Shown here piece after piece: positions 30,821 through 52,070 of a stretch of 64,000 nt of DNA; the first letter of the stretch is position 1, and every line of letters begins with the position of its first letter. The translations under genes and the position numbers were made by a program. The notes beneath the pieces were generated by a model. That model was given only the letters and a program-made list of their open reading frames with translations. It did no database searches and was not told the origin of the DNA. This DNA comes from Haematococcus lacustris. Taxonomy: Eukaryota > Chlorophyta > Chlorophyceae > Chlamydomonadales > Haematococcaceae. The stretch covers positions 62,001 to 126,000 of the forward strand of contig JASKMD010000016.1 in NCBI GenBank assembly GCA_030144725.1, written 5' to 3'.

Positions 30821-30870
30821 TACAAGAGAGAGAGAGACTAAAGAAAAGAAGAAAAGAGAAGACTACAACA

Positions 30871-31904
30871 AACATGGGTCCCCCATACACGAGTCCCAAG
30901 CACCCCACCCCGAAAATAGCGTTCCACACACCCCAAGCAAAGGTCCACACACCCCAAGGAAAACCCCTCCCTAGGACAACGTCAAGACACCCCCCCACAC
31001 CAACGCCCTCCACCCTAGCTCTACACACCTCCCCAGACCCTCCTCACAATACTACTCACACGAGTCTAAGCCCAGCCACACGACCTGAACGCACTAAGCC
31101 CCCACCAGCAAACCTACAGCTCAGGCTGGCTCGACGGGGAAGGGGACAGGCCACTGCAAGGAGAGGCGAACCACTAGCTCTCCCCCCCCCTGCGCCCTGC
31201 CCTCCCCAAGCCTAGGCCTCCCTGCTGCCCTCTCCTCCTCCACTCCTCCTGCCCCAACCCTCCCCTCTGCCCCCTCCTGCCCTCCCCTCCGCTCCCTCCT
31301 AGGCTGCTTGGCAAACTAGCCCCCCGACGCCTCGGGCCACAGCTGATCGAAGTGGGCAGCGTCCAGCTCCGGTTCCTTGCCCTTGAACCAGGTGGAGGGC
31401 ACAGCGCCGCAGAGGCCCACGCGGATGTCCCTCCCCACCCGATGCCAGTCACGCTTGACGGCCGTGGCGAGGGTGGAGATGATCTCCTCCACGACCCGCC
31501 TCGCCACCTGCTGTGGCTGTAGGGCTGTAGCGGCTCCTGAGCTGCGGAGGCGCCAAAATGCGCCCAGGTAGGCCACGCGCAGCCGCAGCCACAGTAGGCT
31601 GTCAGGGGGCTGGAAGGGGGGGTCCTCGCCGCGGGTGGGGCGCCCACTGAGGAGCAGCATGGCGTCGGCTGAGGGGGGCGGGTGCCTGTGAGGCGGCCGT
31701 ACACGTCCATCACCCACTCCCAGGCTGGGACCACGGCGGAGCAGGTCAGGAAGGCGTGGGTGAGAGTCTCCAGGTGCCCCGGCTGGCTGAAGCGGCAGGC
31801 GCACGAGCCCGGGGCAGCCGCCTCCTTGAGGATGTGGCCCCACAAGGCCCCCACCATGAGGCTGGCGTGAAGCACTCGCCAGGCCACGATGACATGCTCC
31901 CGAC
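30871..31904 (-). mobile_element. LINE array unit 4 (3' end only)
   Basis: The 3' region and zinc-finger C-terminus of a further unit. At 31,904 it breaks off inside ORF2 and continues into a diverged LINE-like sequence. A shorter G-run near 31,675 shifts its frame relative to other copies. This is the right edge of the tandem array. Confidence 0.75.
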
Positions 31905-32366
31905 GGAGGGTGGGGTCTAGCAGCTCCTTTCACACCTTCGCACACGGCTGGCCCGCCTGATCACCCACAGCCAGCTGGTCCACGGTGTCGGCCCGGGGAG
32001 CGGGCTGAGCAGCTGGCTGCCTGCCCCCACGCCGCTGTTGGGCCTCCAGCTGCCGCTCAGCCTGCTGGGCCGCCCTCATCTGCGGCGAGGGTCGTTGGTG
32101 CGCCCTGTCGGAGGTGTCAAGCCAGCGAGGCGGTTGGCTGCCCTGCACCTCTTCGGGGAGCCGCTCCTCCACATCCTTGCCCTGCTGCTCCCGCTCCCCC
32201 GCTGCCCCCTGGCCTGCCACCTGCTGCGCGCTAGCCTCCCACTTGAGCTCCAGCTCTCTCAGGGCTCCATCAGCCACCGCTGCCGCCTCCGGTTCGCCCG
32301 CTGCCCGGGGGGGGCGCCCACCCCACAGCGCAGGCCACAAGCCCCCACTGGGTGGGTAGAGGGGGT
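31905..32366 (-). pseudogene. Diverged LINE ORF1 fragment up to assembly gap
   Basis: On the minus strand the frame contains VQGSQPPRWLDTSDRAHQRP, clearly related to the LQGSQPPRWLDTAARAPPRP segment of the array ORF1, followed by a Gln/Arg-rich tail and a stop. The divergence is much greater than between array units, so this is another subfamily. Its upstream part is lost in the N gap. Confidence 0.6.
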
Positions 32367-32866: not shown

Positions 32867-34366
32867 GTGAGTGCACATGCTTGCTGGCTGATGTTTGCTT
32901 GCAGTTGTCGACAGCTGGAGCATGGCAGGTGTAGCATGGCCTGAATGATTGCAAGCAAGGCGGTAGAGCAGCAACAAACAAGGAGCCAGCAAGTACCGTA
33001 CCCTCCCCGTACCCCGTAACCCGTACCCTACCCCGGCGGCGTGACACGGAGCGTAACTGTAAGTGGCCAGTCCTTGCACATGAGTGGTCCCCAATGCCAA
33101 GCCTAAATGCAAGGATGCCTCTTGCTGCCGCAGGTCTGATGGTCACACTGCTGCCCCTTGCCCCCTTCCCCCTTCCCCCTTCCCTGCCCAAGCCCACCAC
33201 CACCACTTCCGAGTCTGCCACCTACCTACCCTCCTCCCCTCCTCCCCCTCCTCCCCTCTTCTCTCCTCTCCCCCACCCAATGGCACCCAGCAGCCCTTGG
33301 CGTAGCAGCATGGAGCGGGCAGCCTGGAGCGGGCAGCCCGGAGTGGGCAGCATGGAGCGGGCAGCCTGGAGCGGGCAGCCTGGAGCGGGCAGCCTGGAGC
33401 GGGCAGCCTAGAGCGGGCAGCCTGAAGCGGGCAGCCTGGAGCGGGCAACCTGGAGTGGGCAACCTGGAGCCAAGCCTAGCCCAGCCTACCCCAGCCTAGC
33501 CTAGCCTAGCATACCCCAGCCTAGCCTAGCCTAGCCTACCCCAGGCTAGCCTTGCCTAGGCTAGCCTACCCTAGCCTACCCTAGCCTAGCCTACCCCAGG
33601 CTAGCCCAGCCTAGCCTAGCCCAGCCTGATTTGGTGCCATGGGGCATAGGCAGCAAGGCAAAGTGCTTAGCAGTCCCGTGATAAGGTGTTAGCCCATAGC
33701 AATGAGGTGCAGCCTGTCCTTGTGGTCGTTGTGTCGTTGTGTTGTTGTTGTAGTGATGTTGTGTGGTGTTGTTGTGTGGTGTTGTCACCTTCCATCAATG
33801 CATGTGCTTAGCACCAGCAATACATGCCGTTTGTTGTGGTGTTGCGAGGTGTTCTGGCGTCGTTGCATACGTTGTGGCAGAACCCTGTAGCCGTGCGGCA
33901 TGACCCTGTGAACGTGTGTCGTAGGACCCTGTAGCCGTGCGGCAGGACCCTATGAGAATATGTGGTAGGACCCGGTAGCCGTGCGACAGAACCCTGTAGA
34001 CGTGTATCGTACGACCCTGTAGCCGTGCGGCACAACCCTGTAAGAATGTGTCGCAGAACCCTGTAGCCGTGCGGCAGAACCCTGTAGACGTGTGTCGTAC
34101 GACCCTGTAGCCGTGCGGCAGAACCCTGTAGACTAATGTCGTAGGACCCTGTCGGCGTGCGGCAGAACCCTGTAGCCTAATGTCGCAGGACCCTGTAGCC
34201 GTGCGGCAGAACCCTGTGAGAATGTGACGCAGGACCCTGTAGGCGTGCGGCAGAACCCTGTAAAACTGTGTCGTAGGACCCTGTAGCCGTGCGGCAGAAC
34301 CCTGTGGCCCAGGACCCTGTACAGGGTCGGTAGGACCCTGTACAGGTTCGGGCGATTTTTCAAATA
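32867..34366. mobile_element. Probable right part of another non-autonomous CACTA-like element
   Basis: The non-coding sequence shares modules with the element at 3,105-9,576: the TTGCTGCCGCAGGTCTGATGG motif near 33,125, a GTTGTTGTTGT stretch followed by CATGTGCTTA near 33,800, and then a subterminal-type array. It also holds a 14-bp GGAGCGGGCAGCCT repeat (33,305-33,470) and a CCTAGC microsatellite (33,475-33,640). It is interrupted at 34,366 by the 17.7-kb element and appears to continue at 52,069. A GCGCGAGTG at 52,196-52,204 could be its right terminus. No gene seen. Confidence 0.5.
33875..34335. repeat. Minisatellite of CCGTGCGGCAGAACCCTGTAG type
   Basis: The array alternates a CCCTGTAGCCGTGCGGCAGAA unit with a more variable AACGTGTGTCGTA unit, giving a period of about 42 bp (two 21-bp halves). 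It lies where the subterminal array of the host element would be, and uses a motif different from all other arrays in the window. Confidence 0.85.
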
Positions 34367-34482
34367 CACTCGTAGGAATTAGCAGCCAGGCGCCTGGACC
34401 GACTTTGGCCGTTGTGGCTGAAACTTAGCCGGTTGAAAGCTGTACGCAATCCAACCCAAAAAGAATCAGGTCATAAAAATGT
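34367..34482. repeat. Left terminal inverted repeat of the 17.7-kb element
   Basis: Starts CACTCGTAGGAATTAGCAGC and contains GGACCGACTTTGGCCGTTG and CAATCCAACCCAAAA. It matches the complement of 51,950-52,068 with scattered differences and one 5-bp indel. The outermost 20 bp are identical. Confidence 0.9.
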
Positions 34483-34496
34483 AAGGCTAGGGTTGT

Positions 34497-36290
34497 GTGG
34501 CATCGTTCAGGGTGTTCAGGTTTGTGTTCAGGGTGTTCAGGTTTTTTGTTCAGTGTGTTCAGTGTTTTAGTTCAGGCTGTTCAGGGCTGGTGTTCAGGTT
34601 GTTCAGGTCTGTGTTCAGTGTGTTCAGTGCTATGTTCAGTGTGTTCAGGTTTGTGTTCTGTGTGTTCAGGGCTTGTGTTCAGTGAGTTCAGGGCTATTTT
34701 CAGGGTGTTCAGGTCTATGTTCAGTGTGTTCAGGTCTATGTTCAGGTTGTTCAGGTCTTGGTTCAGGTTGCTTATGTCTATGTTCAGGGTGCTCAGGTTT
34801 ATGTTCAGGTTGCTCAGGTCTATGTTCAGGTGGTTCAGGCTGTGGTTCAGGGTGTTCAGGCTGTGGTTCAGGGCGTTCAGGCTGTGCTTCAGGGTGTTCA
34901 GGTTTGTGTTCAGGGTGTTCAGGGCTGTGGTTCAGGGTGTTCAGGGCTAGGGTTCAGGGTGTTCAGGTTTGTGTTCAGGGTGTTCAGGGCTGTGGTTCAG
35001 GGTGTTCAGGGCTTTGGTTCAGGGTGCTCAGGCTGTGGTTCAGGGCGTTCAGGTTTGTGTTCAGGGTGTTTTAGGGCTGTGGTTCAGGGTGTTCAGGGCT
35101 GTGGTTCAGGGTGTTCAGGTTTGTGTTCAGGGTGTTCAGGGCTAAGGTTCAGGGTGTTCAGGGCTATGGTTCAAGGTGTTCAGGCTGTGGTTCAGGGTGT
35201 TCAGGGCTATGGTTCAGGGTGTTCAGGTTTGTGTTCAGGGTGTTCAGGGCTGTGGTTCAGGGTGTTCAGGTTTGTGTTCAGGGTGTTCAGGCTGTGGTTC
35301 AGGGCGTTCAGGTTTGTGTTCAGGGTGTTCAGGGCTGTGGTTCAGGGTGTTCAGGCTGTGGTTCAGTGTGCTCAGGTTTGTGTTCAGGGTGTTCAGGCTG
35401 TGGTTCAGGGTGTTCAGGGCTATGGTTCAGGGTGTTCAGGTTTGTGTTCAGGGTGTTGAGGGCTGAGGTTCAGGGTGTTCAGGTTTGTGTTCAGGGTGTT
35501 CAGGCTGTGGTTCAGGGCGTTCAGGTTTGTGTTCAGGGTGTTCAGGGCTGTGGTTCAGGGTGTTCAGGGCTATGGTTCAGGGTGTTCAGGCTGTGGTTCA
35601 GGGTGTTCAGGGCTAAGGTTCAGGGTGTTCAGGGCTATGGTTCAAGGTGTTCAGGCTGTGGTTCAGGGTGTTCAGGGCTATGGTTCAGGGTGTTCAGGTT
35701 TGTGTTCAGGGTGTTCAGGGCTGTGGTTCAGGGTGTTCAGGGCTATGGTTCAGGGTGTTCAGGTTTGTGTTCAGGGTGTTCAGGGCTGTGGTTCAGGGTG
35801 TTCAGGTTTGTGTTCAGGGTGTTCAGGTTTGTGTTCAGGGTGTTCAGGGCTGAGGTTCAGGGTGTTCAGGGCTATGGTTCAGGGTGTTCAGGCTGTGGTT
35901 CAGGGTGTTCAGGGCTATGGTTCAGGGTGTTCAGGTTTGTGTTCAGGGCGTTCAGGGCTGTGGTTCAGGGTGTTCAGGCTGTGGTTCAGGGCGTTCAGGT
36001 TTGTGTTCAGGGTGTTCAGGTTTGTGTACAGGGTGTTAAGGGCTGTGGTTCAGGGTGTTCAGGGCTTTGGTTCAGGGTGTTCAGGTTTGTGTTCAGGGTG
36101 TTCAGGGTTGAGGTTCAGGGTGTTCAGGGCTGTGGTTCAGGGTGTTCAGGGCTGTTGTTCAGGGTGTTCAGTGCTGTGGTTCAGGGTGTTCAGGCTGTGG
36201 TTCAGTGTGCTCAGCATGTGGTTCAGGGTGTTCAGGCTGTGGTTCAGTGTGCTCAGCATGTGGTTCAGGGTGCTAAGCATGTGCAAGCCT
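34497..36290. repeat. Left subterminal minisatellite (TTCAGGGTGTTCAGG type)
   Basis: About 80 units of 21-22 bp, built on GTTCAGGGTGTTCAGG with a variable TTTGTG/GCTGTGG/GCTATGG half. The outermost units (34,700-34,850) include GTCTATGTTCAGGTGGTTCA, which is the complement of the right array unit, so the two arrays are inverted copies that have diverged. The period of 21 bp equals two helical turns. Long open frames through it are by-products of a period divisible by three. Confidence 0.9.
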
Positions 36291-36306
36291 ATTGTTAATC
36301 AGAGTG

Positions 36307-37437
36307 CTAAGCATGAGTAACGCCATGAATGAAGATGCAGTAGCGTGGCTCAAGGGATTCGCCCACTGCCAATACAAACACAACACATCACACCATGTTA
36401 ATACAACTAATGTATGCTGTATTTCATGTTGTGTAACGGAACACCATTACGCTGTGTAATAGAACATGGGACATGGATAGGCTAGGAGGTGGTGGTATGA
36501 AGTACATGGCCTGAGGTGGCTGTGCCCTCACCCTTCATAAAGCGGGGTGTCTGACATGTGGGGCACACTTCATCTTTGTGATCCTTCCATTTGTCCCTGT
36601 GATAAGGACTTATAAGACAGTTGCCACCAGTCAAGCGTGACCACATCCACAATCACATACGACCTACCGAGGAAGGTACTCGAAGGCATGGCCTCCACAC
36701 CCCTTGCTGTTGCAGACGTGTACACGTTGTCCCTCTTGCTCCTCTGCTCCAAGCACACCATATAATTGATGTGGGGTCGCAGGATGCCATGTCTTGCCTG
36801 GGCCCAAGCTGTTGTTCATGAGCTTCAACACCCTCATGACGTCCTGTTCTGACGGGCAGGCGGTGACGAGGTACTCACAGATCGACGCCAGGTGACCTCT
36901 CAAAGACGTGTCTGGAGGACTATGGAACAAGGGCGCGCCCTCTGCCAGTTGCTGCTGGATGGTGGACACCTTGCTCTTGCGATGGACCACACCGCCACCT
37001 AAGGCGGCTGCCCTAACAGCCGCCCCTCCCACGCCCCCTCCTCCTCCCCCACCACCACCGCCACCTCCTCCACCTCCACCGCCGCCCCCGCCCCCCCCCC
37101 CATCACCTCCTCCGCCACCTCCCCCTCCACCTCCCCCGCCACCCCCGCCTCCCCTCCCGCCGTCAACATCCTCGCCCGCTCCCCCAGCGCTCTCATTGTA
37201 ATCCCCATCACCGGCTCCCCTGAGAACCTCATCGCCTCCCTCACCACCATGGCCCCCACTCCCATCGCCTTGACTCGATCCTTCCCCCCTCCTTTGGGTG
37301 CTGTGGCGTTCTCCCTCCTCATCTGCCCCACCCACAGCCACACCACGTAACCCAACATCCCGACCATTCCCTCCGCCTGCACCCCTCACTCCCACATACT
37401 CATCAACCCCTTCCCTGCTGCAGCTGCCCAGAGACAC
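36307..37437 (-). pseudogene. Truncated CACTA-type transposase (N-terminal exons only)
   Basis: Three exons are recognisable by comparison with the gene at 55,316-62,365. A large exon (acceptor at about 37,437, end 36,668) has a poly-Gly tract and ends in VHVCNSKGCGGHAFEYLPR. The next (36,532-36,596) encodes DKWKDHKDEVCPTCQTPRF, and the third (from 36,365) is broken off by a TAG at 36,307-36,309, just before the subterminal array. Intron phases (2, then 1) are the same as in the intact homologue, where the matching text is LHVCNG...HTFGHLPR and [19 protein letters not shown]. The catalytic region is lost. Exons upstream of 37,437 were not resolved. A short protein with the zinc-binding motifs might still be made. 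Confidence 0.75.
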
Positions 37438-38314
37438 CTGAGGAACATCAACACACATGCATTTATGACACACATACACACAATCATGATTGATGTCACA
37501 AATCTTTGCACGCTGTGAGTTCACTCCATACCTTTGTCCTCTTGGGGACTGACTGATGTGGTGTTGAGCAACCTCTTTTGGGCATGTCGAAAGGATGCTG
37601 TTGCCTGTATCACACATGTGCACAGCATAACAGTGTGTTTCCTTCACCAGTACCTATTTAGCAAGCTTGCACACATGTGTCACCTTGAGGGGTGGTACTT
37701 GCAATGGTGTTGGCGGCCCAGGCATGTTTTTTGGTTCAGTACCAGCCACACTCTTGTGCAGCTTGTCTCCGTAATATGCCTGCATTCAAGGATACAATGG
37801 TGTCATGCCGACTTGCTAGATGGTGTACATTTACAAGTGTCCACCTCACATCGACCCATTTCACAAACTCGTACATGTGCTGATTATACGATTGACCCGG
37901 TTGCCGAACCTGCGTACATTGAGACATGTTGTCGAGAGCTCCCAGGCAAGGGCCCAGCCCCATAGCACTGGCCAGCATGCCGTCCAGCATACCGGCACTG
38001 GCAACAGCGGAGGCGGGGGCGATCGCTTGCACGCTTCCCCTCTGCCGTCTGATGCCGTCTTCGCCGTCTGATGCTTGTCATCGGGCAGGGCCGTCATCGC
38101 ACTAGTACTAGCCCAATCGACGTCGATGTATCAACCAGCAACCGGACATCGCTTGTATGTACGTCCCATCCTCCTCCTTCGCGACACACAGTTTATGTTG
38201 CTGCTTACCGACTCCTACCTAGCCTCCTCAATATCCCCTCAAGTCCTGCCGGGCTTCAATCATCTCACATTTTTGCTGAACGGACATTTTGCAACGGAAC
38301 ACGGACGCTGTAAC
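37438..38314. other. Region between the divergent transposase and accessory genes
   Basis: About 880 bp separating the resolved transposase exon from the accessory-gene start. It probably holds a first transposase exon or 5' UTR on the minus strand and a bidirectional promoter. No clear TATA box or repeat was seen. The corresponding spacer in the second element is 486 bp (62,366-62,851). Confidence 0.4.
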
Positions 38315-41063
38315 ATGTCGCTGGATGTTGTTGTGCGTGATTTGCATAACAAGGAAATAACTCGTTTCGCAGCAAACACATTCCTCGCTGCAAAGTATCT
38401 AAAGAATGCACTTGAGGAGCACCAACTGTGGAAGGTCGACATTAACGACGATGGCAGCGTCCGCCTGTTACAAAAGTTTGCTGATGTTGACTACAACCGG
38501 TTAGCTCGAGTACTCTGGCGCAACCGCTACGACAAGGCCTGGGAGGCTTCGGGCGCACAAAACAAGTGGGGCATGTTCTCCACAGCGGGCGAGGTTGTGG
38601 AGGCCGTCATCTACTCCCATGCCCATGATGAGGTACAGTATGTGGTCTTGTAGTAACTGCTGCCTCATGTTTAGACTCTGTAGTGTCCGTATACACTCAG
38701 GCACCATCTCAGACGCCACCTGCCAGCCTAGAATTGCTTCCACCTCTCCAGCAAAGTGAAGGCAAGAAGCAGACCAAGGTGTGTTGCTGTCATGCGACCC
38801 AGTTGTACATGCACACCTAAGCTGCTTATAGCCACTGTAAAGTACACGTGCACGTTGACATGACCAGGGCTTGATACGCAAGCGAATTGCCAGCCCCTTA
38901 CCCTCTAGTTCAGAAGATGAAGGTGAGGTGGAAGAGGAAGAGGAGGAAGAGAATGAGGAGGATGAGGACCAGTACGAGGAGGAGGGGGTGGAGGACAACC
39001 AGCCCCTTCCACTGGTAGGCCTCTCCATGTTGTTAACTATGCTAATGTCCAACACCCATGTTAACTAGGCCATTGTTAACTAGGCTGGGTCCAATGATTC
39101 CTCAAAAGTCTGTGTCTTTGTGCGTGCCCTATTGCATGGATGCAGTTGCTATCAGAAGCTGCAGGTCAGCCAGGTGCCACCCCAAGCAGGCCCAACAAGC
39201 AGGTGCGCCTATAAGTTGTATGGACCAGTCCATTACGACAATGTGACTTGTTTCTCCAAGGGGCTGCTTGTATCCTCACAGGCCAAGCGCACTAGTGACA
39301 GCGGTGCCAAGAGCAAGAGCAGGACCAAGAAGGAGGCTGTGGTCAAGCCCAAGCCCAAGCCAAAGCCCAAGGCTACGAGGCAGACAGCTCGGTCTCACAA
39401 CCCTTTTGGGGAAGAGAACGAGAAGGTGGGTGTGTGCATGCTAACCCATGCCTGCATTTCCTAGCCATGCCACAAGCAAATACAATCTGACCATAAACAT
39501 CCACTTTGCAGGTGTATGACATTGCGCGCACCGCGAGTAATCAAGTTGCTGGCATGTACACCATGCGAGCAGTCAAACCTGTGAGTGTTGATATAGTAGA
39601 AGATGTGCCCCCACTGTGTTTAATGCGTCTATATGATGAGCTTGGTTCATGCAGCTCCACCCCATTGGCAATGAGCCTCATGGGAAGTACTGCACGTGGG
39701 CGACGAAGGATCCCAATGCCAAGTGGGAAGCGGCAGAGATCACGGCAGTGGGGGCTGTGACCTTGGTCATCGAGGCTAAACATGATGGCATCCTGCCCAA
39801 GTGTGTGACTTATGGGGGCGTAGAGGCCGTCTTATGTCAGTGAGTGTCCATCTCCGTGCTAGGTAGGGATGTTATGAACGCTCTTGTGTCATGTACAAAA
39901 ACAAGCACATTTTTCCTTAATGATGCAGCGTCGTCCACACGAGGCGCACCACTCATGACAGCTATGTCAGGAAGAACCCTGGCAAGGAGTGCAGCCCAAC
40001 ATTTGCCGAAGAGGCCAGAGTCTTCGAGAGATACGCCAAACTCAGAAAAGATCATGGCACCCACCACGTTCCTGCTGGATGGGACGTTGAGCATGCTCGT
40101 GGTTTGGCTTTGAAGCAACTGACCGGTGAGCACGCTGTTCAAATGGTAGAGGGCACACATGGGAGCTTACATCTAATGTAGTCACTTTACCTATTGTGCA
40201 ATGCGACATGTATATGCAGGGAGGACGCCTGTGAAGCGCAGCCCTGCAGCCAAGACACGTGGCCAGCCCAGCAATGCGCCAGGCACCCAGCCATCTGTGT
40301 CCACCTGCATTGAGCATTTGTTGAGCGCCCAGGCAGCAGAAGTGGCGTGGAAGCTTGGTGTATCGGTGAGCGTGGGCACCATTTGGCTACCACGTCATGT
40401 ACACATCTATCATGAGCTCAAACAGTACATCAAACATCCTATAATATTTGAGGTGTAGGCGTCAGTATCGTATATCCTATCGTGTTTGATGTTGTTTGCC
40501 TAACAGGTGTCCACCGTCAGCAATGCCATTCCTGGGGTATTGGCAGCGAAGCTCCCCAAGCTTGAGGTGTGTGACCTGGTCACCTTGTTCTACTGCCCAT
40601 CACTGACCATCTTGCTTATAATGGTCATAATACCCCCCATTGATTGTTGTAGGCCTTGATTGCCACCTTCATCACTGAGGCGGTGTCCTCATTGCATGAG
40701 GTCGTGGAGAGGCAGACAAGCGTGGGACTCGGGCTTGCTCCACAGCCTGCCAACCAGCAGGCCATCCAGTGTGCCCCCCAGCATGCCCACCAGCCGGCAG
40801 ATGAGGGGGTGCCAAGCGGCAAGGGTGGATCCCAGCAGCTGCTACCAGCGGAGCCGCCGGCGGCCGGGCCGGAGAAGAAGATGGAGGGGAAGGAGATGGA
40901 CAAGGAAGATAAAGATGAGGGGGAGGACGAGGTTGGGGAGGGGGAGGACGAGGTTGGGGAGGGGGAGGCTGGGGACGAGGATCCTTTTGCAGCGATCAAC
41001 GAAGCTGTGCAAGGCACCCAGGCCCATGGCATGATGCATCAGGCCTCGTCCCCAGAAATCTGA
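38315..41063 (+). CDS. Transposon accessory gene A, multi-exon, possible TnpA-like protein
   Basis: Eleven exons with GT-AG borders can be joined in one frame to about 600 residues. The first exon (38,315-38,632, 106 codons, phase-0 end) gives a globular domain (TRFAANTFLAAKYLKNALEE, WKVDINDDGSVRLL, WGMFSTAGEVVEAVIY). An acidic exon (38,870-39,014), a Lys/Pro basic segment (KPKPKPKPKATRQTARS), a domain rich in His, Trp and Cys (HPIGNEPHGKYCTWATK through KECSPTFAEEARVFERY), and an acidic C-terminus follow. I do not recognise a named family. The first exon has a diverged homologue at 62,852 in the second element, in the same position relative to the transposase. A DNA-binding role at the subterminal arrays is inferred from CACTA biology, not seen directly. 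Confidence 0.75.
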
Positions 41064-41411
41064 TCCAATGTGGCGTGTGAGACCAGCAGAGACATGGGCC
41101 TTGCATGACTTGCAGATCTTACATGGCTTGCATGTGACATGTGCATCCAAGTTCGCAGCACATGTCTAGAACAGGATTAAGGTCATGTAGCATGAGTTGG
41201 GAACGCTATCAAACAAAGCCTGTTGTTGCAGTGCATCCGACCTCTCAACATACCTATGAACTTATGAATGCAGGTCGATGATACTCATGGTTGACACTGA
41301 AACTCATTACCTAATGATGCCAATGATGGTGATGTTGAGGGACTATGTTCACCCTGAGAAACGTCCATCCCAATGCAAAGCACACCACATCACAAGAAGG
41401 GCCCCTCCAGG

Positions 41412-42536
41412 TCACCAGAACCGTTGTCCCACCTGCAGCCCCGGGGCCATCCCTGACAAGACCTGCACACACCGGCTGGAAAGCGGACCTGCGAGCCTTA
41501 TGAACTGGACAGCTGCACACCCCTGCAATAGTGGTGCCACAGACAGCGCCACCTGCTCATCCCTCAACCTGCCATTAGCATTGCGCACCCCAAGCTCCAC
41601 CTGGACCTTCTTATAGCACCCTACCAGAGGCAATAGGGCTGCTATTGACGCCTCTCCTGCTCCTTCCAGGCTGGTGAAGGACAGCTGCAGCTGCCCAATG
41701 TGCAGCTTCTCAAACCACCCATCCCTGACCGCTTCAATCCCAGTAGCCAATTCCGCCTGATCCAGCTCTGGTAGGATGGCACAGAGGTCAGAGATATGCA
41801 GCTCTGTGATGGACTGGGGGAGCTTGCAGACATCTTTCACTAGCACCTCTGTGACGTTGACCACCTTGAGGTTGCTGGGTTGTTCTCGTAGGGAGTGGGG
41901 CAAGGGACCCAACTTGAAGGCGTGCAAGGTAGTCAGGAACAAAGCATAACCATCCCAAGCAATGCCTCCCTCATACGTCATGCAGTGGCGGCCTCCATTC
42001 CGAATGTCCAGGTGCTTGATGTGCTTCACAACCAGGCTGTCGCTCAGGAAATTCACCAGCTCTGCTGAGTAGCAGACAAAACCGCTGAAACGGAGCGTCT
42101 CACAATAGGGGAAGTTGGACAGCAGCCTGTCCGCGAACCATGCCCCCACCGGCAAATGCTCATAGCTCGCCGCCGGCTGCCTGTCGACGTATCGGAACTC
42201 CACGCTTCTGATTGCCTCACAGTAGCCCAGAATCGCTATGACGCCCTCCACCATGCACCGATTCTTGTATGCACTGCGTTGCTTGTCTTGGGTCAGCCTA
42301 AGCGCCATAGGCAGGGTACGCCGACGCAATGCCGTCTGGATGCGAGTGGAGAGGTGGGCGTTGATGGCTTTTGTGTTGATGTTCAGCGTGAGGGATTCGC
42401 ACGAGGCGAGGCACGCCTCGTGGCACTTCCTGCTGACCAGGCTGAATTTACGGCCCTGACGGTACCGGACGAGGTAACCAGCGATTGAAGCTAACGCATC
42501 GTCGGGGAGGCTGAGAAGGCGTGACTCGTGAGCCAT
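41412..42536 (-). CDS. F-box/leucine-rich-type protein within the transposon
   Basis: A single-exon gene of about 374 residues; the ATG at 42,536 is chosen because it directly precedes the F-box and upstream in-frame codons lack ATG. The N-terminal F-box reads LLSLPDDALASIAGYLVRYRQG followed by FSLVSRKCHEAC, matching the LPxxxLxxI pattern. The rest consists of leucine-rich stretches at irregular spacing (VKHIKHLDIRNG, LHAFKLGPLP, LKVVNVTEVLVKDV, ITELHISDL), as in F-box/LRR substrate receptors. Such proteins normally bind Skp1 in SCF ubiquitin ligases. It is antisense to and between genes A and B, and 284 bp from the start of gene B. It may be a captured host gene or a family gene; no counterpart is visible in the second element as far as the window goes. 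Stop TGA. Confidence 0.7.
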   Translation of the reverse strand: MAHESRLLSLPDDALASIAGYLVRYRQGRKFSLVSRKCHEACLASCESLTLNINTKAINAHLSTRIQTALRRRTLPMALRLTQDKQRSAYKNRCMVEGVIAILGYCEAIRSVEFRYVDRQPAASYEHLPVGAWFADRLLSNFPYCETLRFSGFVCYSAELVNFLSDSLVVKHIKHLDIRNGGRHCMTYEGGIAWDGYALFLTTLHAFKLGPLPHSLREQPSNLKVVNVTEVLVKDVCKLPQSITELHISDLCAILPELDQAELATGIEAVRDGWFEKLHIGQLQLSFTSLEGAGEASIAALLPLVGCYKKVQVELGVRNANGRLRDEQVALSVAPLLQGCAAVQFIRLAGPLSSRCVQVLSGMAPGLQVGQRFW

Positions 42537-42820
42537 TGTAGTTTTCTGTGGCGGTACGGCAGTCCTGGCGCCTACTCGTGCGCTTGCACCATGCACTTGC
42601 ACACACAAAACATATGAAGCATCAGGGATGAGGGTTCCCGCATCCGTTGTATGAAGTTATAATCCCGGCTCTTGTAGTGTAGTGGACCACTACAGGTGGA
42701 GGAAGCAGTATTCGTGTTTTGTATTAGACTTGCATGGTGATTCCACAGTTTCGGGCCTCAGGCCTGCTACTATCACCATCGAGTAGCGTTTACCATCAAA
42801 CCTAAACCGCATCGCTGCAA

Positions 42821-45800
42821 ATGTCTCAATCGAAGGCAAGCTCATTTCCGGCCAAGTTCACCACCGGGGATATGACCGGAATCAGTGCGTCAGGCGCTAC
42901 AGTCCCGTTAGCGTCGGTGGCGGAGACAATGGTGAAGAGAATAATTGACATGAAGGTAATAGAAGTTCCATTAGGTTGCATCAATGTTGGACTAAGGAGC
43001 ACTGTGACCCACTACCTGCCTCTTGCAATGCAGAATCCAGCACAGGACCAGGAGAGGATCAAATACATAGTGGCTCTCATGGTTGGCTGCATGGACCTCG
43101 CTAACAGCAACAACCCGCCCAGCAAGGAAATGATGGCTAAGGAGGTGTTAAGGTGTGGCGTACATGGCAGAGTACAGCATACAAGAGGCTGCAGTATACA
43201 CCACCATGTATGGACTTTTACACAGGCAAGTGTTAAAGGCACGAGCAACCTGGAACAAGCTGACAGAGGAGGGCCAGAAGGAATACTCCAAGGGATATGT
43301 CGCGGCCACCAAACACTACCCAGGCCTGTCTGCCGTGGGAGTATATGGGGCAGGCGTCCCCGAGGGCATGGAGTGCCTGATGACGCTGTATGACATTTAC
43401 TCAAACTCCAGTGGGTGATAGCATCAGGGAGTGTAAGCCACCTAATCACACAGCAACCAAGCCTCTCAGCCACCCATCTACCGCATGCTGTGGTTATTGC
43501 AGAGAAGCCCATTCAGAGCACACCCGAGCTGTTGGCCACAGTGAGGGCTGTCACAGCTGTGTCATGCACCTTGGTGACTGGTAACACACCAAAGAGAAAG
43601 ACACAACCTGCGACACAGGTATTCATTACCTGCCCATGCAGGTGTACATGATGCATGCACCAACAACATGTAATGATATGATGTAGTTGTGCAAATGCAG
43701 ACAACCAAGCGCCCAAGGAACTCAGCATCCCCCGCAACACAGACATCAACCCCAGTGGTGTGTGTGCCTGGCACGTTACAAGTGTCACATGTGTGATGAG
43801 GTCAGCATGAAGCGTAACCCTGTTCTAACGCAGGTCATTGAGGGTGTCCAATACACTCCACAGTCAAAGGACTGTGTCGCAGCGATCCTGAATGGACTGG
43901 AGGACAAGGTGAAGCACACATACAGAGCTTATAGCAATGCAAGTTGTGATAGAACAAATGATCAACTACCCTGACCGGTACTCTACATGTGTGCAGTTCA
44001 GAGCGACAATTGAGCAGAAGGACTTGGATGACATGGGCAGAGATGGGTTCGTGTCATGCGGATTATTGGATGTGTGCTGTGCCGCCATGAAGGTGACATG
44101 CACAGGATCCTGATGCATGCATGCAAATGTCTCATTAGCACTGTAGTGAAGGACGACTTGGGTTGTTTGTGCGCTTACAGATCGAAGGGGGACTGGACCC
44201 AGCACTGGAGTTTGTCACCATCCTCCGTACCCAAGCCTTTGATAAACTGACGCGCACCTGGGAGTCATCAACTGCCCCACCCATGACAGAGGAGGATTGG
44301 GTGGCGTACAGCACGTATTGCAGCACATATGACAGATTGGCTGAGCGCAAGGTGGTCTTGGCGCCTATGTTCGTGACCAATCACTTCATCCTGTTTGCCT
44401 TCTTCCCAGACACCATGCAGGTGGTGTACTTCAACTCTATGCTGAAGGGTCCGCCGGTACGTGACCATCACCTAAGCTGTCATACACAGCATCCACCTCA
44501 CCGTATGAAGGGTAGATTGCAGACATGTCTAACCACTTGTACAAATGCAGGCCCACCGCCAAGTGGCCCTGATAACAGAGTTGGCAGCTAGGTGCATCAA
44601 GGCTGGCTCATGGAGGTTTGAGGTGGGCACCGTGGAGCAGCAGTCGGACGGTATCAACTGCGCACACTATGTCCTGGCCATGGTGTACGCTTTTGTCAAC
44701 CAGCTTGACATGTAAGGGAGGAGATGAACACATTGTGCACAGGTTGTGAAGATCAGGCAAATGCATGGCACAATTGAACCCACATGTGCTGTGAGTCACG
44801 CAGGGGCTATGCCAACAAGGTTGACCTGTCTCGTGTGAACATCACAAAACAGCGCCAAGACGTGACGGAGTGCATCAAAGATGCAATGGCGGTCATTGGG
44901 CCCGAGGCGGCAATGTTTCCAACAGCACCGGTGGCCTCCCCTCCACAATACAAGGACGTGTTGCGAGGTACGCAGCATGCTGTGGTGTTGTTTCATTCAT
45001 GCAAGTTGTATCTCCCCAAGACATGTAACCTTGGTGTACTGAGCACCTTGCATGGTTGACCTGATTTTAAACTGCAACCCGTACACAGGGTCTCCAGCTG
45101 CTGCCTCAACGTCCCAGCAACAGCCCTCAGCCTCCGCCCCTGGCAGGGTCTCGCCACGTACACCCACCCCTGCCCATTCATCGCAGCCTGCCCCAGCCCC
45201 TACCACCGCCTGCTCCCAGCCTCCTGCAACCGCATTGCCCCTGGCCAATACCTCAGCCTGCACCCCTGGCCCATCAGCGGCGCCTGCCCCTGCCCTTATC
45301 CTTGCCCCCACCAGCCTCCCAGCGACACCAGCCCCTACCCCGGCCCCAGCACCAGCTCCTGTCCTGGATGCATGCACATCTCCGCCACTTGCTCCCAGCA
45401 AGCAGCCAGCAACACCAGCCCAAGACCTGAACACCGCACCAGTTCCCGCCCTTGACACTTCCCTTGCCACTACCACTAGAGCCGTGTCACCCATGGGCAG
45501 CGGCCGGATGACTGGTGCTAAGCACAGTGGCAGTGGAGGTATGCCATGGGCGGTGCTAATAGCAGCAACATATTGCTTGTTGTTGTGTACGGCATGGACG
45601 TTGCAAGTTGAACATGCGGGACATGTGTGGCAGTAGCATGATGCCTTGTTCCAACAATTCATGTCACGTTAGCCATTATCTGCATTTGACCACAGGTCCT
45701 CCAGCACCAAGACGGACAAAAAAAGGAATACGCCATTCTAATGATACACATGTGAGTACCTAGCCATGTGAAGCTCATTTGTGACTCAATACTCTTGGCA

Positions 45801-48800
45801 GTGCAATGTTTTTTATGCTATTGCAGCGCATCGCAAGAGATTACTGCCCTGATGACAAGTTCCATGACGCCATAACCCAGGATCCTGTGTGGCTGTCAGA
45901 TGACACAATGGATCTAGCCCTGGAACTTATTCAGGTCAGTAACTGTGAGGCTTACGGCATCACGGCGTGGATGAGCACAATAAGTAGTACTCATTGGTGG
46001 CCCAGATTCATGTATAACATGCCTTGTGCACTGCCTTTCCAGGCGACCCGCTATGACCCACAACTCAACAACTTTGCGTTGTTTAAGTTCGAGATGGGTT
46101 TGGCAATAAGGAACAGCAAGGCAGAGGTGGCCAGCAGGGCTAACCAATTCTGCTTGACAGGTGGCCGCCGCTTGGTTGGCCAAGGAGCGTCAGGAGTACA
46201 GGGTGCATCAAATGTCCTAATCCCTTTCAACTTCTCAGGGAATCACTGGACGCTGGCAGCTGCTTATCCCAGCACACAAAAGGTCGTGTATTGGGACCCA
46301 TTGGGGGTAAGAACATCAGATGTGATATTGCAACGCATACATGATACCAACTCATAGATACTCATTGCCGCATACCTGTGCATGCTTGTAGGATGGTAAA
46401 CTTGAGGCTGAGCAGTGGGAGAAGTTGCACTCCTTTCTGCAACAGTATGTCAGCGCAGGAGATTGGAGTTGGGAGTGCGGCACTTGCCCCCGCCAGCACG
46501 ATGGCTGGAGCTGCGGCGACCGCATGCTGCTGCACATAGACTACATAACTGGGAATATGCAGAGGCATGTACTTGTTTGTAATATTACACAATATTACAC
46601 AATTACTTGTTTGTAATATTAAACAATATTACATTATTGTGTGCTTGTGCAATCATGTGGATGGGCTTGTGCAGGTATGCATGTCAGCATGTGTGCAGGG
46701 ACATGTGTGGTGTGTGTTCATGTGAATGTGAAGTGAGATGCATGTGACCTTGCCTCTCAACATAACATGTCATGATGTTAGGCACCTAGTAAGTGGTATC
46801 TTGATTAATGCATGCTGTGCAGAGACGCGTCCATGGTCACCAACATCAACTACGATGACAAATCGTGGCTGGCAAGGCGTATGTGCTTGAAGGACGCGGT
46901 GCAGGGTCTGGCGGCAATGAGTGACTCTGATGACAAGTACATCTGGCATGGTCTGGTAAGAGCAACATCATCAGCTAGAGGCACATGCAACAACAAATCA
47001 CAAGCACATGGCAGCAACAACCATGTTGTAAGATGTGATGCTCGCAGGTCAAGCTTGACCTGCGTTGGAAGACAGCGGCAGCCTCAAGGGTGTTGGAAGG
47101 CGCCTACAGAAGAAAGTACGGAGGAAAACCTGTGGTGGGTGGCCCGGCAACTAACTATGTATAGAACATGAGGCAACAACACATCACAGCATGACCATGC
47201 ATGGGGTAACCCTTGTCACAATGAACATTGAACAATTGTGACTAACAGAGTATGTCCGCATGCTTGATCACAGGCTAAGAAGGCTGAGCCCCAACAGGAT
47301 GCGTCAGCGAAAGTGTACGTAGATCTAACAGTGAGTATGAGTGAAGAGTTAGATAACCATGACCACAATCAGCAGCTCACCATCAAATGATGGTTTACAT
47401 TGCTTATTTGTTTGCAGGTAGCTAGCCAAGAGGTTGGCGTGCAGGAGCAGATTAAAACGTTGGCCAAGGACATTGCTGTGAGTTATCAGATGCAAATATA
47501 TACTTGCAGCTCAACATTGTAAGTAGTATAAATGATAAGGATAAAACCTCATTGTTTGAATTTCAGGACATCAAGAATCAGGGAACCGTGAACACAGCTA
47601 AGCTGGACCTGGTGTGTGACAGACTGCAGCAACTGTGGGACATTGTGCGAGGCAAAGAGGGGGAGAAGAAGAAGGAGAGCCATGATCCTAAGGTTGGTAA
47701 GCAAGCATGAAAACCATCCCACAATAACATTTTAGGGCAAAGGTATTGATGGTACTGTTTTTTTTATGATGGCATTAGTGCAGGTTGACGACCCAACACT
47801 GAAGAAGGGCCCTGACACCGAGTGGCAGCTGCCTAAGTTTCAGGATAAAGCAGTTCATGTGTGGCAACCCGGGCAGGAGAAGGAGTTCAAGGCCACTGTC
47901 CACAGCGATGGCTATGCTGTAATGAAAGTGGGGGAGGAGTTCATGCCTAGCCGCATGGAGATGTGGGCCTTGTTGGAGCTGACCATGAGCTATGCAGACA
48001 TCATCTTCAAGGAGGGCGCCATCAACCGTGAGGGGGAGGTACGAACCCAGAAGCGCAAGACAAGCAATGTGAGTAGGTAGCGTCCATAACTAGCCTTAGC
48101 CCTAGTCCTAACCCTAGCCCTAACCCTAGTCCTAACCCTAGCCCTAACACTAACCCAACCCCATCCCTTCTTCCATGCATAGCCCTAGCCCTAGCCCTAA
48201 CCCTAGCCCTAGCCCTAACCCTAACCCTAACCCAACCCCATCCCCTCTTCCATGCATAGCCCTAGCCCTAGCCCTAGCCCTAGCCCTAGCCCTAGCCCTA
48301 GCCCTAGCCCTAGCCCTAGCCCTAGCCCTAGCCCTAGCCCTAGCCCTAGCCCTAGCCCTAGACCTAGCCCTAGCCCTAGCCCTAGACCTAGCCCTAGCCC
48401 TAGCCCTAGCCCTAGCCGTAGCCCTAGCCCTAGCCCTAGCCCTAGCCCTAGCCCTAGCCCTAGCCCTAGCCCTAACCCTAGCCATAACCCTAACCCAACA
48501 GAACTTCTATATGCTGACATGCATGCAGGTGGTGGTCACGGAGTACGGAACCGGGCAACGCAAGCAGCTGCTGTTCACTACCCCACAGCAGGATGGCAGC
48601 CTGGCTGACGAGGTGTCCATGGCGGGGGTGATGGGCGTGAGGCAGCTGGAGCTGTTCATGAACAAGCCGGCACACATCAAGGCTCGCCACCTGGCTGCCA
48701 AGGTGTGGGCTAAGGCCTGCTTGCAGCGCCTCCAGGCAAGGGCCAGGCAGCTAGTCTCCTCTCCTCTCCGCGGTGGCACGATCCTATGCAACGACCCATA

Positions 48801-49868
48801 CACACAGAGGATCAAGGTCCCAAAGCAGCCGGGGCTGACAGAGGTACCAGCAGAGTGCTTGGTGCCGCCTCAATGCTTGCATGTGGATGTGCGGCCAGAG
48901 CTCACGGATGCGGAGGAGGCAGCCCTTGCAGCGCAGCAAGACAACCATGCTGCAGCCCAGGCGCCCCACCCGCCCACCATGTCAGCCCCCACCCCCTCAA
49001 GCCCACAGAACCAGCCCCACCCACCTGTCCCAACAGCTGCTGCCACATCTCTGCCCCGGGCCCCATCCTCAGCAGCATGCAGCAGCCCATCAGCACCAGG
49101 TGCTGGACACAGCCAGCTGCCCCCCCCCCAGCTGTCCACAAATGACCGGGATGGCATGGTCCTCATCATGGCCATGCAGTTGGTGAGCATACTGCTCATC
49201 CCCAAGAGTCACGAGTGGGTGCAGCTGGTTGAGCGGATCTGGAATGGGCCTGGAAAGAATGGCGAGATAGATGCAGCGCTTGACCTTGCGCTGCAGGGCA
49301 TGCCTCCCCAGGAGGTGGTGCGGGTGACCTTGCAGCCAGGTCAGGTGTTGGGGATGCGTGGGTATACGATCCACGCTGGGGATGTGGGCAGAGAGGGGAC
49401 TGGTTCGGTGCGTGTTCACTTCTACGCCTCCACAGCTTTTGTGTCCAACACCACCACCTTCGTGCATGAGTTTGGCACCAGGTTTGACAGCCTGTGCCAG
49501 CCCACTACTGAGCCCAAGCGAGACAGCAACCCCAAGGTGTCAGCCTGGCGTAAGCCAGAAGCAGGTGGCGAGTATGTGCCAAGGCGCCCATACCATCCCC
49601 CCACTAGGCTGGAGACTGATGAGCTCTGGGAGGCTGGGTGGGAGTCACGCTTGCCTAACAGCAATGACGTGGTGTTACTGGAAAAGAAATGGGAGACAGC
49701 ACTAATGGCAGAGGCTGCTTCTCAAGCTGCTGAAGCTGCAATGTCACGGGCAGAACAGTTGCAAGCTAAGTCAGAGGAAGCTGAGTCCACGAAGGGGGCA
49801 AAGGCAGCAGCAAGGGCAGCAAAGGCTGCATCATCGAAAGCAGCAGCAGCAACAGCAGCAGAAGCAGC

Positions 49869-49919
<51 letters not shown>

Positions 49920-49947
49920 GGCAATGGAGGAGAAGGGGGAGGCATAG
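42821..49947 (+). CDS. Accessory gene B: two Ulp1-type protease domains and a 2OG-oxygenase-like domain
   Basis: About 20 exons give a protein of roughly 1,550-1,600 residues. Order: an unrecognised N-terminal domain (42,821-43,420), a linker, a first Ulp1/C48-like domain (43,992-44,713), a Pro/Ala-rich linker (45,090-45,540), a second Ulp1-like domain (45,829-46,575), a Lys-rich and coiled-coil part (46,820-47,690), a domain with [20 protein letters not shown] (47,784-48,038), a repeat-filled intron, and a large last exon with a double-stranded-beta-helix signature and an Ala/Glu-rich helical tail. Domain two has His (GNHWTL), Asp (WDPLG), Gln and Cys ([10 protein letters not shown]). Domain one has His (TNHFILF), Asn for Asp (YFNSM), Gln and Cys ([11 protein letters not shown]). 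A one-base frame problem near 43,155 needs checking. TGTAA follows the stop by about 115 bp. Confidence 0.75.
43992..44713 (+). other. First Ulp1/C48-like domain of gene B (Asp replaced by Asn)
   Basis: Exons 43,992-44,091, 44,180-44,456 and 44,551-44,713. The start resembles the Ulp1 entry motif ([20 protein letters not shown]), then [21 protein letters not shown] gives the His and, two strands later, Asn at the usual Asp position. [17 protein letters not shown] supplies the Gln and Cys. The Asn may weaken or alter the triad; similar substitutions occur in thiol proteases. Confidence 0.65.
45829..46575 (+). other. Second Ulp1/C48-like domain of gene B (complete triad)
   Basis: The entry motif [17 protein letters not shown] is the classical Ulp1 WLxD pattern. 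[11 protein letters not shown] and VVYWDPLG give His and Asp, and [19 protein letters not shown] gives the oxyanion Gln and nucleophile Cys. Introns fall after LIQ, after DPLG and after the Cys-containing block, the same three places as in the first domain. Confidence 0.75.
48069..48528 (+). repeat. Intron of gene B built of CCCTAG/CCCTAA hexamers
   Basis: Nearly the entire 460-bp intron is CCCTAG, CCCTAA and related hexamers, interrupted twice by CCCAACCCCATCCC-CTTCCATGCAT spacers. The donor is GTGAGT at 48,069 (an alternative GTACGA at 48,039 keeps the same phase) and the acceptor is ATGCAG at 48,523-48,528. The coding strand carries the C-rich strand of a telomere-like repeat. Chlamydomonas telomeres use TTTTAGGG, so this is not simply that repeat. 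Confidence 0.85.
48529..49947 (+). other. Last exon of gene B with 2OG-Fe(II) oxygenase-like fold
   Basis: After a helical segment the exon has CLHVDVRPE (HxD, at about 48,880-48,888), a Pro/Ser-rich insert, then [38 protein letters not shown] (second metal His at 49,371) and SVRVHFYAS (Arg for the 2OG carboxylate). This is the HxD...H...R order of 2OG-Fe(II) dioxygenases. The 70-residue low-complexity insert between HxD and the next strand is unusual. Target unknown. The last 90 residues are Ala/Glu/Lys helix, with a GCA microsatellite. Confidence 0.6.
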
Positions 49948-50061
49948 GTGGTGTATGCATGATCATGCCATATGTCTGACATGCGTGTGTAGTGGGATAG
50001 GGGACTTAAAGTTAGAGCAAATTGATGCAATGCTGAACAACATGGCAATGACTTGGTGTTA

Positions 50062-50066
50062 TGTAA
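50062..50066 (+). promoter_or_regulatory. TGTAA poly(A) signal after gene B
   Basis: TGTAA occurs about 115 bp after the gene B stop and again in a short repeat at about 50,091. It is the standard polyadenylation signal of chlamydomonadalean algae, and supports both the gene end and the taxonomic placement. Confidence 0.5.
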
Positions 50067-50096
50067 TGTTCTAGACATGGATTGGTGTTATGTAAT

Positions 50097-51937
50097 GTTC
50101 TTGACCTGAACCACCTGAACATAGACCTGAACCACCTGAACATAGACCTGAACCACCTGAACCAAGACCTGAATCACCTGAACCAAGACCTGAACCACCT
50201 GAACATAGACCTGAACCACCTGAACATTGACCAGAACCACCTGAACCAAGACCTGAACCACCTGGACCAAGACCTGAATCACATGAACCAAGACCTGAAC
50301 CACCTGAACATAGACCTGAACCACCTGAACATAGACCTGAACCACCTGAACATAGACCTGAACCACCTGAACATAGACCTGAACCACCTGAACATAGACC
50401 TGAACCACCTGAACATAGACCTGAACCACCTGATCCAAGACCTGAACCACCTGAACATAGACCTGCACCACCTGAACCAAGACCTGAACCACCTGAACAT
50501 AGACCTGAACCACCTGATCCAAGACCTGAACCACCTGAACATAGACCTGAACCACCTGAACATAGACCTGAACCACCTGATCCAAGACCTGAACCACCTG
50601 AACATAGACCTGCACCACCTGAACCAAGACCTGAACCACCTGAACATAGACCGGAACCACCTGAACCAAGACCTGAACCACCTGAACATAGACCTGAACC
50701 ACCTGAACATAGACCTGAACCACCTGATCCAAGACCTGAACCACCTGAACATAGACCTGCACCACCTGAACCAAGACCTGAACCACCTGAACATAGACCG
50801 GAACCACCTGAACCAAGACCTGAACCACCTGAACATAGACCTGAACCACCTGAACATAGACCTGAACCACCTGAACATAGACCTGAACCACCTGAACATA
50901 GACCTGCACCACCTGAACCAAGACCTGAACCACCTGAACATGGACCTGAACCACCTGAACATAGACCTGAACCACCTGAACCAAGACCTGAACCACCTGA
51001 ACATAGACCTGAACCACCTGAACATAGACCTGAACCACCTGAACCAAGACCTGAATCACCTGAACCATGACCTGAACCACCTGAACATAGACCTGCACCA
51101 CCTGAACCAAGACCTGAACCACCTGAACATAGACCTGAACCACCTGAACATAGACCTGAACCACCTGAACCAAACCTGAAACACCTGAACATAGACCTGA
51201 ACCACCTGAACATAGACCTGAATCACCTGAACATAGACCTGAACCACCTGAACATAGACCTGAACCACCTGAACATAGACCTGAACCACCTAAACATTGA
51301 CCTGAACCACCTGAACATAGACCTGCACCACCTGAACCAAACATGAACCACCTGAACATAGACCTGAACCACCTGAACATAGACCTGAACCACCTGAACA
51401 TAGACCTGAACCACCTGAACCAAGACCTGAACCACCTGAACCAAGACCTGAATCACCTGAACCAAGACCTGAACCACCTGAACATAGACCTGAACCACCT
51501 GAACATAGACCTGAACCACCTGAACATAGACCTGAACCACCTGAACCAAGACCTGAACCACCTGTACCAAGACCTGAACCACCTGAACCAAGACCTGAAC
51601 CACCTGAACATAGACCTGAACCACCTGAACATAGACCTGAACCACCTGAACATAGACCTGAACCACCTGAACATAGACCTGAACCACCTGAACATAGACC
51701 TGAACCACCTGATCCAAGACCTGAACCACCTGAACATAGACCTGCACCACCTGAACCAAGACCTGAACCACCTGAACATAGACCTGAACCACCTGAACAT
51801 AGACCTGAACCACCTGAACATAGACCTGAACCACCTGAACCAAGACCTAAACCACCTGAACATAGACCTGAACAACCTGAACAAAGACCTGAACCACCTG
51901 AACCAAGACCTGAACAACCTGAACACAGCCACCCAGC
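50097..51937. repeat. Right subterminal minisatellite (CTGAACCACCTGAACATAG type)
   Basis: About 85 units of 21 bp alternating CTGAACCAC with CTGAACATAGA or CTGAACCAAGA. It is the complement of the left array type. Higher-order blocks of 3-6 units recur (for example 50,400-50,640 and 50,640-50,820), suggesting growth by unequal exchange. Changes such as ATCCAAGA or CTGCACC are shared between blocks. Open frames in both strands are by-products. Confidence 0.92.
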
Positions 51938-51949
51938 TCCAGCCTTTGG

Positions 51950-52068
51950 CTTTTATAGCCTGATTTCTTTTGGGTTGGATTGCGTACATTACAAGCTTTC
52001 AACCGGCTAAGTTTCAGCCACAACGGCCAAAGTCGGTCCAGGCGCTTGGCTGCTAATTCCTACGAGTG
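51950..52068. repeat. Right terminal inverted repeat of the 17.7-kb element
   Basis: Ends GCTGCTAATTCCTACGAGTG at 52,068, followed by TA. It contains the complement of the left repeat, with one 5-bp insertion near 51,990 and a few substitutions. Confidence 0.9.
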
Positions 52069-52070
52069 TA

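Follow-up and report, generated by a model that had tools for sequence, protein, structure and literature searches.

We describe here a mobile element of the green alga Haematococcus lacustris, which occupies positions 34,367 to 52,068 of a 64,000-nucleotide stretch of contig JASKMD010000016.1 (assembly GCA_030144725.1, positions 62,001 to 126,000; hereafter the window). With moderate confidence, we read it as a cut-and-paste CACTA/EnSpm-like transposon (CMCT group) carrying an old accessory module that probably acts against host silencing. Its anatomy is nearly certain: CACTCG ends, a 2-bp target-site duplication, mutually inverted arrays, and a complete form with cargo genes. In this complete form, the genes follow each other in the order transposase (leftward), p1 (rightward), an F-box-like gene (leftward), and p2 (rightward). 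The latter is modelled as a single protein of 1508 amino acids (aa) that joins two C48-like (Ulp1-type) domains, C48a and C48b, to a 2-oxoglutarate (2OG) oxygenase-like domain. Both p2 and the F-box-like gene are under purifying selection. Contig labels used below (C182, C476, C90_6441, etc.) designate loci in the H. lacustris genome itself, in which the window corresponds to C56:62001-126000.

Ends, copies and mobility

The element opens with CACTCGTAGG at 34,367 and is closed by the reverse complement of the same sequence at 52,068. Its terminal inverted repeats align over 118 columns with 90.7% identity (5 mismatches and one 6-base gap, E 1e-43). The termini of the window copy, CACTCG...CGAGTG, have the CA...TG form, typically CACT, of CACTA/EnSpm elements. 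A preliminary description, made from the letters of the window, had placed these inverted repeats and a TA duplication at the ends of the element, and they prove exact to the base. The TA was also considered as a part of the inverted repeats, which is ruled out by the different 2-bp flanks of other copies. Subterminal arrays, a further mark of CACTA/EnSpm elements, stand at both ends in mutually inverted orientation, and they do so too in the C182 copy.

When the genome was searched with the 234 bases of the left end, 518 candidates came up; 40 of them were scored, with 40 matches that cover at least 231 of the 234 bases (E <1e-55), the two ends of the window element being counted among them. 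Many further ends are thus present, and the absence of other copies, which the preliminary description had named as a ground for giving up a mobile unit, was not found. We read 13 further loci and, later, C64 and C182:4077897. Both ends were seen in 11 of the 13 (C90_6441 and C100 show one end within 20 kb) and in C182:4077897, while C64 shows one end within 10 kb. Thirteen end pairs can be compared in this way (the window, the 11 loci, and C182), and nine of them have identical 2-bp flanks (TA, TG, TT, TG, AG, AC, TA, TC, and AT). For the first 8 matching flanks out of 12, the binomial chance is 9e-8 at 1/16 each. A duplication of 2 bp falls in the 2-5-bp range of CACTA/EnSpm (CMCT) elements. 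Departures of the termini themselves were seen in two of the 13 pairs: one end of C182_11923 reads CACCCG, and in C420 the last base differs.

Two sister copies are particularly informative. C56:139408-143776 is a 4.4-kb internally deleted sister, the ends of which are 99.6% and 98.6% identical to those of the window copy, suggesting recent movement. C182:4077897-4100227 is a complete copy of 22,331 bp, with both ends, AT/AT flanks, and both arrays; it contains, in the order of the window, transposase segments, p1, the F-box-like gene (98.9%), and p2, and a single block of 93.7% identity spans window positions 36319-50083. Hence, the cargo belongs to the element. The earlier placement of these genes inside one mobile unit is borne out, since they are seen within both ends of this complete sister.

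The transposase presents a different situation. A CACTA-type transposase had been announced; its core exists in sister copies and the window copy holds an N-terminal remnant only. The two remnant exons match the N-terminus of a neighbouring transposase gene (55.3-61 kb of the window; E 7e-6 and 3e-4) and the sister copies (96-99% and 91-95%). A complete transposase in the window copy was ruled out, the core being absent and only the N-terminal zinc-finger exons being left. Thus, this copy is not autonomous and would move only with help in trans. The extra DNA that C476 carries at the deletion junction (see the table) encodes the remaining transposase, at 33-60% identity by segment to the neighbouring transposase protein, and the core is also found in C64 and C182. 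A 168-aa core exon is identical in C476 and C64, and its ratio of nonsynonymous to synonymous substitution rates (dN/dS) against C182 is 0.24 and 0.28. By eye, the motifs SLGLDW, VADTPAR, MNCMWC, NLHMCVC, and AEFWLERAMQ can be recognized in C476, C64, and C182, in the D, D, CxxC, His-rich, E order of the CMCT group.

Features of the element in the window (positions counted from the first letter of the window)
Feature	Position	Strand	Remark
Target-site duplication, left	34365..34366	.	TA; other copies TG, TT, AG, AC, TC, AT
Left terminal inverted repeat, beginning CACTCGTAGGAATTAGCAGCC	34367..34478	+	90.7% to right repeat; matches in own genome
Left subterminal array, unit about 21 bp	34505..36272	+	
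Deletion junction	36272..36319	.	Longer at this site in C476 (by about 4.4 kb) and in C90_6441 (by about 2 kb)
Transposase remnant, two N-terminal exons, Cys-rich finger	36532..36969 (approximate)	-	Catalytic core absent
p1, 11-exon model, 636 aa, no known domain	38126..41063	+	Relatives in C90_6441, C182, and the C1 locus
F-box-like gene, single exon, 374 aa, probably with leucine-rich repeats	41412..42536	-	Intact open reading frame
p2, 23-exon model, 1508 aa	42821..49947	+	Continuous frame over 22 introns, one GC donor
C48a, p2 aa 205-461 (H329, N346, Q383/Q384, C390)	43834..44967	+	Alignment to C48b
C48b, p2 aa 631-786 (H709, D726, Q764, C770)	45827..46564	+	Pfam and PDB match
Last p2 exon, 2OG-oxygenase-like domain (H1154, D1156, H1318, R1331)	48529..49947	+	
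Right subterminal array, inverted, 21-bp unit	50103..51925	-	
Right terminal inverted repeat	51951..52068	-	
Target-site duplication, right	52069..52070	.	TA

Cargo genes and their conservation

Gene models were built with a purpose-written splice-aware predictor, the exon limits being then set by hand. In the preliminary description, a double Ulp1 protein and an oxygenase-like domain stood as separate items; they are modelled here as one p2 protein. The p2 splice sites are kept wherever they could be aligned in four copies (21/21, 15/15, 14/14, and 22/22, the last in C182). In C182, no stop occurs in the 1505 p2 codons compared; three codons are gapped, with a 1-base insertion in exon 12 near one of the gaps.

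C48b matches the Pfam profile PF02902 (Peptidase_C48) above its cut-off (E 4.2e-6) and the solved structure of a Ulp1-like SUMO protease (6dg4, E 7e-5), in which its His, Asp, Gln, and Cys all have counterparts. This catalytic set is kept in the copies aligned and in the model of a diverged locus on C1, and the dN/dS of the domain against the window is 0.307-0.337 in three copies and 0.292 in C182. C48a aligns to C48b with a score of 111, against 31 +/- 5.5 in shuffled sequences (0 of 500 reach it). The residues of Ulp1/C48 proteases (His, Asp/Asn, Gln, and Cys) are therefore found directly in C48b, and through its alignment to C48b in C48a. The two Ulp1 domains proposed earlier stand on these grounds, the second by Pfam and PDB matches and the first by likeness to the second. 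In C90_6441, the dN/dS of C48a against the window copy is 0.191 (257 codons). No match at E up to 1 was obtained for p2 residues 631-1140 among 7263 candidates from about 5.8 billion proteins.

The oxygenase-like domain, a candidate 2OG enzyme, lies in the last exon of p2. All 17 sequences compared (that of the window and 16 chosen relatives, about 59-71% identical) have its HxD...H...R residues, and a Pro-rich stretch between HxD and the remainder varies among them. Ten of 12 family members match the PhyH profile (best E 2.9e-4); with the window sequence alone, E is 0.038 or 0.16. PDB profile searches with the domain returned one match each (E 1.4 and 0.63), neither of them an oxygenase. Of the profile scans that the preliminary description called for, those for C48 and 2OG domains thus give C48b and, weakly, PhyH, and C48a and the F-box remain without a profile match.

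Selection on p2 is purifying. In the last exon, dN/dS ranges from 0.172 to 0.323 (six copies, 15 pairs), with no stop and no gap in the compared codons; C312_443 was included in these pairs although about 8.4 kb splits its exon. Against the window, the 2OG part gives 0.128-0.275 and the linker 0.586-0.958, and the whole p2 gives 0.307 over 1505 codons (C182 versus window). For this last exon, 104 matches are listed in the genome (23,630 candidates, 103 scored), 33 of them at 85-100% identity, one at 71%, and 70 at 55-68%. Among about 5.8 billion proteins, one relative was found in the 7996 candidates with the most words in common, an H. lacustris protein (72% over 178 aa), in a search that requires common 5-residue words and similar length, so that absence elsewhere is not proven. 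No relative was found in the phage collection or in the viral contigs searched.

The F-box-like gene was called an F-box gene in the preliminary description. Its open reading frame is intact, as had been said, and F-box profiles match nothing in it. The name follows the look of the N-terminus. In the PDB, a leucine-rich-repeat protein comes closest (1g9u, E 0.0023); the F-box-like protein may still work as an F-box protein. Its dN/dS is 0.212 over 374 codons (C182 versus window) and 0.164 over 77 codons. The family is large in this genome, with at least 110 matches scored of 982 candidates; among the 110 listed, eight are at 95-100% identity and 102 at 40-47%. We also observed at C22:9527500-9547499 an 8.7-kb inverted duplication (99.6%) with ten F-box-like matches (26-43%), five per arm, and matches to p1, p2, and the transposase are absent there.

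Besides these genes, the element contains another long gene, p1, which was missing from the earlier inventory. In C182, the splice-site letters of p1 are kept at all 10 introns.

Matches to p2 and to the F-box-like gene also lie near each other in the genome. An F-box-like match lies within 20 kb of 29 of the 104 last-exon matches listed, whereas random shifts of the F-box-like matches (200 trials) gave 1.1 such cases on average and never more than 6. All 29 pairs are divergent, the F-box-like match lies upstream of p2 in 28 of them, and the spacing is 5.0-7.3 kb in 20. The diverged group supplies 20 of the 29 pairs. In one of the 29 pairs, in C312, the F-box-like match lies outside the end pair of its element. 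At the diverged locus C1:4360500-4378499, the transposase N-terminus, p1, two F-box-like genes, and p2 are present with order and orientation kept, at 29-66% identity by segment. The p2 model of this locus retains C48b, with its H, D, Q, and C, as well as the 2OG-like domain, and p2 is followed by an array of another unit and then by the end GTAGGAGTG.

Positions 2783-3058 of the window hold a 276-bp element with CACTCCTAC...GTAGGAGTG ends and AG/AG flanks. Its ends match the right end of the C1 locus (79% over 87 bp), and it therefore looks like a small non-autonomous relative.

Possible functions and rival explanations

From what is known of the family, the transposase would bind the subterminal arrays and cut at the CACTCG ends. 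p2 and the F-box-like protein would form an accessory module that keeps the element from silencing or restraint. In such a module, the C48 domains could remove SUMO-like conjugates carried by the transposase or by silencing proteins, while the 2OG domain could oxidise either a protein residue or a methyl mark. The F-box-like leucine-rich-repeat protein could deliver a host factor that restrains the element to an SCF ubiquitin ligase. That p2 and the F-box-like gene are kept by selection suggests that these elements come equipped with means of their own to interfere with host control. We consider it rather likely that p2 is active in at least one of its domains. That anti-silencing is the main role is proposed tentatively, as slightly less than an even prospect. 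The most elaborate form of the proposal seems doubtful to us, i.e., a complete anti-silencing kit of an old green-algal transposon lineage, encoded beside the transposase and amplified across the genome, with a SUMO-stripping and oxidising p2 and expanded F-box-like/leucine-rich-repeat receptors that target restraint factors for destruction. As a precedent, passages of PMC13317346 link Ulp1-bearing VANC proteins (KIU) with hypomethylation of related Vandal elements. Further precedents are the TET/JBP oxygenases of CMCT and KDZ transposons and the F-box isoform of Zisupton, to which we return below.

Several observations weigh against our reading. Concerning the element itself, four of the 13 end pairs have no matching duplication (C312_2533, C182_11923, C175, and C420). 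No Pfam model matches the transposase, and the second His of its His-rich motif is a Cys; we name it CACTA/EnSpm-like and not a proven member. As for p2, its start is gone from the C476 and C312_443 copies, the latter (C312:443187-461893) carrying the insertion in the last exon mentioned above, and stops occur in 19 of the 104 last-exon matches listed (85 are free of them). C48a alone gives no profile match, has Asn where Asp is expected, is missing from the diverged C1 model, and shows dN/dS values of 0.413 in C182 and of 0.593 and 0.603 in C476 and C312_443 (112 and 64 codons). The 2OG assignment is drawn from a weak PhyH match and motifs, and structure predictions were useless (predicted local distance difference test, 40 and 32), leaving the fold without structural confirmation. 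Five proteins of the F-box-like family have no F-box profile match (four were scanned without their N-terminal residues), and 7 of the 110 matches listed contain stops (103 do not). For p1, dN/dS values of 0.52 and 0.737 indicate weak or no constraint, and a stop is present in C90_6441; in C182, the modelled start codon is absent and exon 1 has 5 extra bases, so that the p1 model may be wrong at its start.

The main rival supposes that p2, p1, and the F-box-like protein are parts of the transposition machine, with TnpA-like tasks such as array binding and transposase regulation or recycling, and have nothing to do with silencing. In classical CACTA elements, a second protein indeed binds the subterminal repeats, and here the position of the genes between the arrays and their linkage with the transposase are conserved. 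However, the kept C48 and 2OG catalytic residues suggest enzymes working on modified substrates, and we regard this rival as a serious but unlikely one. Those same residues bear on the possibility that the C48 and 2OG domains are catalytically dead and serve as structural or binding modules. The Asn of C48a and the unconfirmed 2OG fold speak for such a loss, which we nevertheless find improbable, since diverged copies keep the C48b and 2OG-like catalytic residues although their linkers vary freely.

It could also be argued that the window copy captured host genes by chance, in the manner of Pack-CACTA elements, and that they have no function for the element. The F-box-like family is very large, as such a capture would have it. 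Against this, the set and its order are kept in C182 and in the C1 locus down to about 29-66% identity, the co-located pairs are all divergent, and the genes are under purifying selection; chance capture appears very improbable, even if gene capture is known in plants, as passages of PMC13317346 report. Finally, tandem and segmental duplications abound in the region, as they might in a duplicated host gene cluster, and an integrated virus could be imagined as well. We give practically no credence to either, in view of the exact ends, the 2-bp duplications of differing letters at separate sites, the transposase in other copies, and the lack of a viral relative of the last p2 exon in the collections searched.

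Neighbouring repeats and comparison with known transposons

Other repeats surround the element. The neighbouring transposase gene, of the same broad type, is predicted at window positions 55320-61176 on the minus strand, and one of its introns contains a long palindromic 18-bp array (57164-58315). Two H. lacustris relatives of its protein were found among the 5.8 billion proteins, and a relative at 95% is annotated in this species. A public H. lacustris transposase model (P0002) joins a transposase to a C-terminal tail, perhaps by gene-model fusion; this tail may resemble TnpB/Fanzor proteins. Hexamer arrays (CTAGCC/GGGCTA) occur at 48090-48496, in a p2 intron, and at 59641-60010, in an intron of the neighbouring transposase, and also in the C182, C476, and C1 copies. 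A further CACTCG element might lie at 3105-9576, which is a guess: its candidate left end is at 3105, both ends have GT, and the right end, CACTCGTAGAAAC reversed, is at 9576 and in a tandem duplicate at 13309, with subterminal-like arrays. The unit 6106-9839 is repeated at 9839-13572 (99.9%). On the minus strand, positions 16489-21168 encode a predicted 1333-aa polyprotein that by eye resembles a Gypsy-type retrotransposon. The repeated blocks 1-2783, 13310-15931, and 21795-31915 (97-99%) seem, by eye from predicted proteins, to be non-LTR (long terminal repeat) retrotransposon pieces.

Target duplications separate the known superfamilies, with 3 bp in plant EnSpm, 8-9 bp in Mutator-like elements (MULEs), and 6 bp in Polintons. 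Ulp1-bearing MULEs (KIU/VANC) have one C48 domain, and Zisupton carries a Ulp1-type domain. Membership in MULEs (KIU) or Polintons was rejected on the 2-bp duplication found here; so was membership in KDZ elements (Zisupton, Kyakuja, Dileera), which duplicate 7-8 bp and whose transposase was not found by profile. The combination of transposase, F-box, SUMO protease, and 2OG domain was not found described in the literature searched, most subscription papers and Repbase lying outside it, in agreement with the preliminary description, which knew of no such element.

The closest likeness is with CACTA/EnSpm elements. According to passages of PMC12730594, the CMCT clade comprises EnSpm, Plavaka, ESTA, Transib, and others, and has a 2-5-bp duplication and a DDE transposase in which C(2)C and H(3-4)H follow the second D and precede the last E; an oxygenase gene can be present in ESTA and EnSpm members. 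The family described here shares with CACTA/EnSpm the CAC...GTG ends, the short target duplication, the subterminal repeats, and, by eye, the order of the transposase motifs. It differs by the Cys in place of the second His, by the F-box-like gene, by the C48-C48-2OG fusion protein, and by a 2-bp duplication of free sequence, whereas ESTA duplicates TA. As in the Ulp1-bearing MULEs, for which anti-silencing is proposed in the passages of PMC13317346, a transposon-borne and selected Ulp1/C48 gene lies beside the transposase; those elements, however, belong to another superfamily and are without a 2OG domain. With KDZ elements, there is the likeness of a TET/JBP oxygenase in fungal members (passages of PMC12730594) and of an F-box isoform in fish Zisupton (passages of PMC12062965). 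More generally, Fe(II)/2OG oxygenases of the TET/JBP type occur on CMCT, KDZ, and other DNA transposons, including fungal ones (passages of PMC12730594). Unlike these, the window element has a PhyH-like domain that a Pro-rich insert splits and that is joined to C48 domains. Transposons that carry just one such gene, either for a SUMO protease or for an oxygenase, are known individually. Here, C48 and 2OG-like domains are fused in the p2 model, beside an F-box-like family, and this module has been kept by selection while diverging to about 29-66% identity. Part of the very large F-box-like family of H. lacustris is carried by transposons, and through this element one can study directly how the DNA transposons of green algae cope with control by their hosts.

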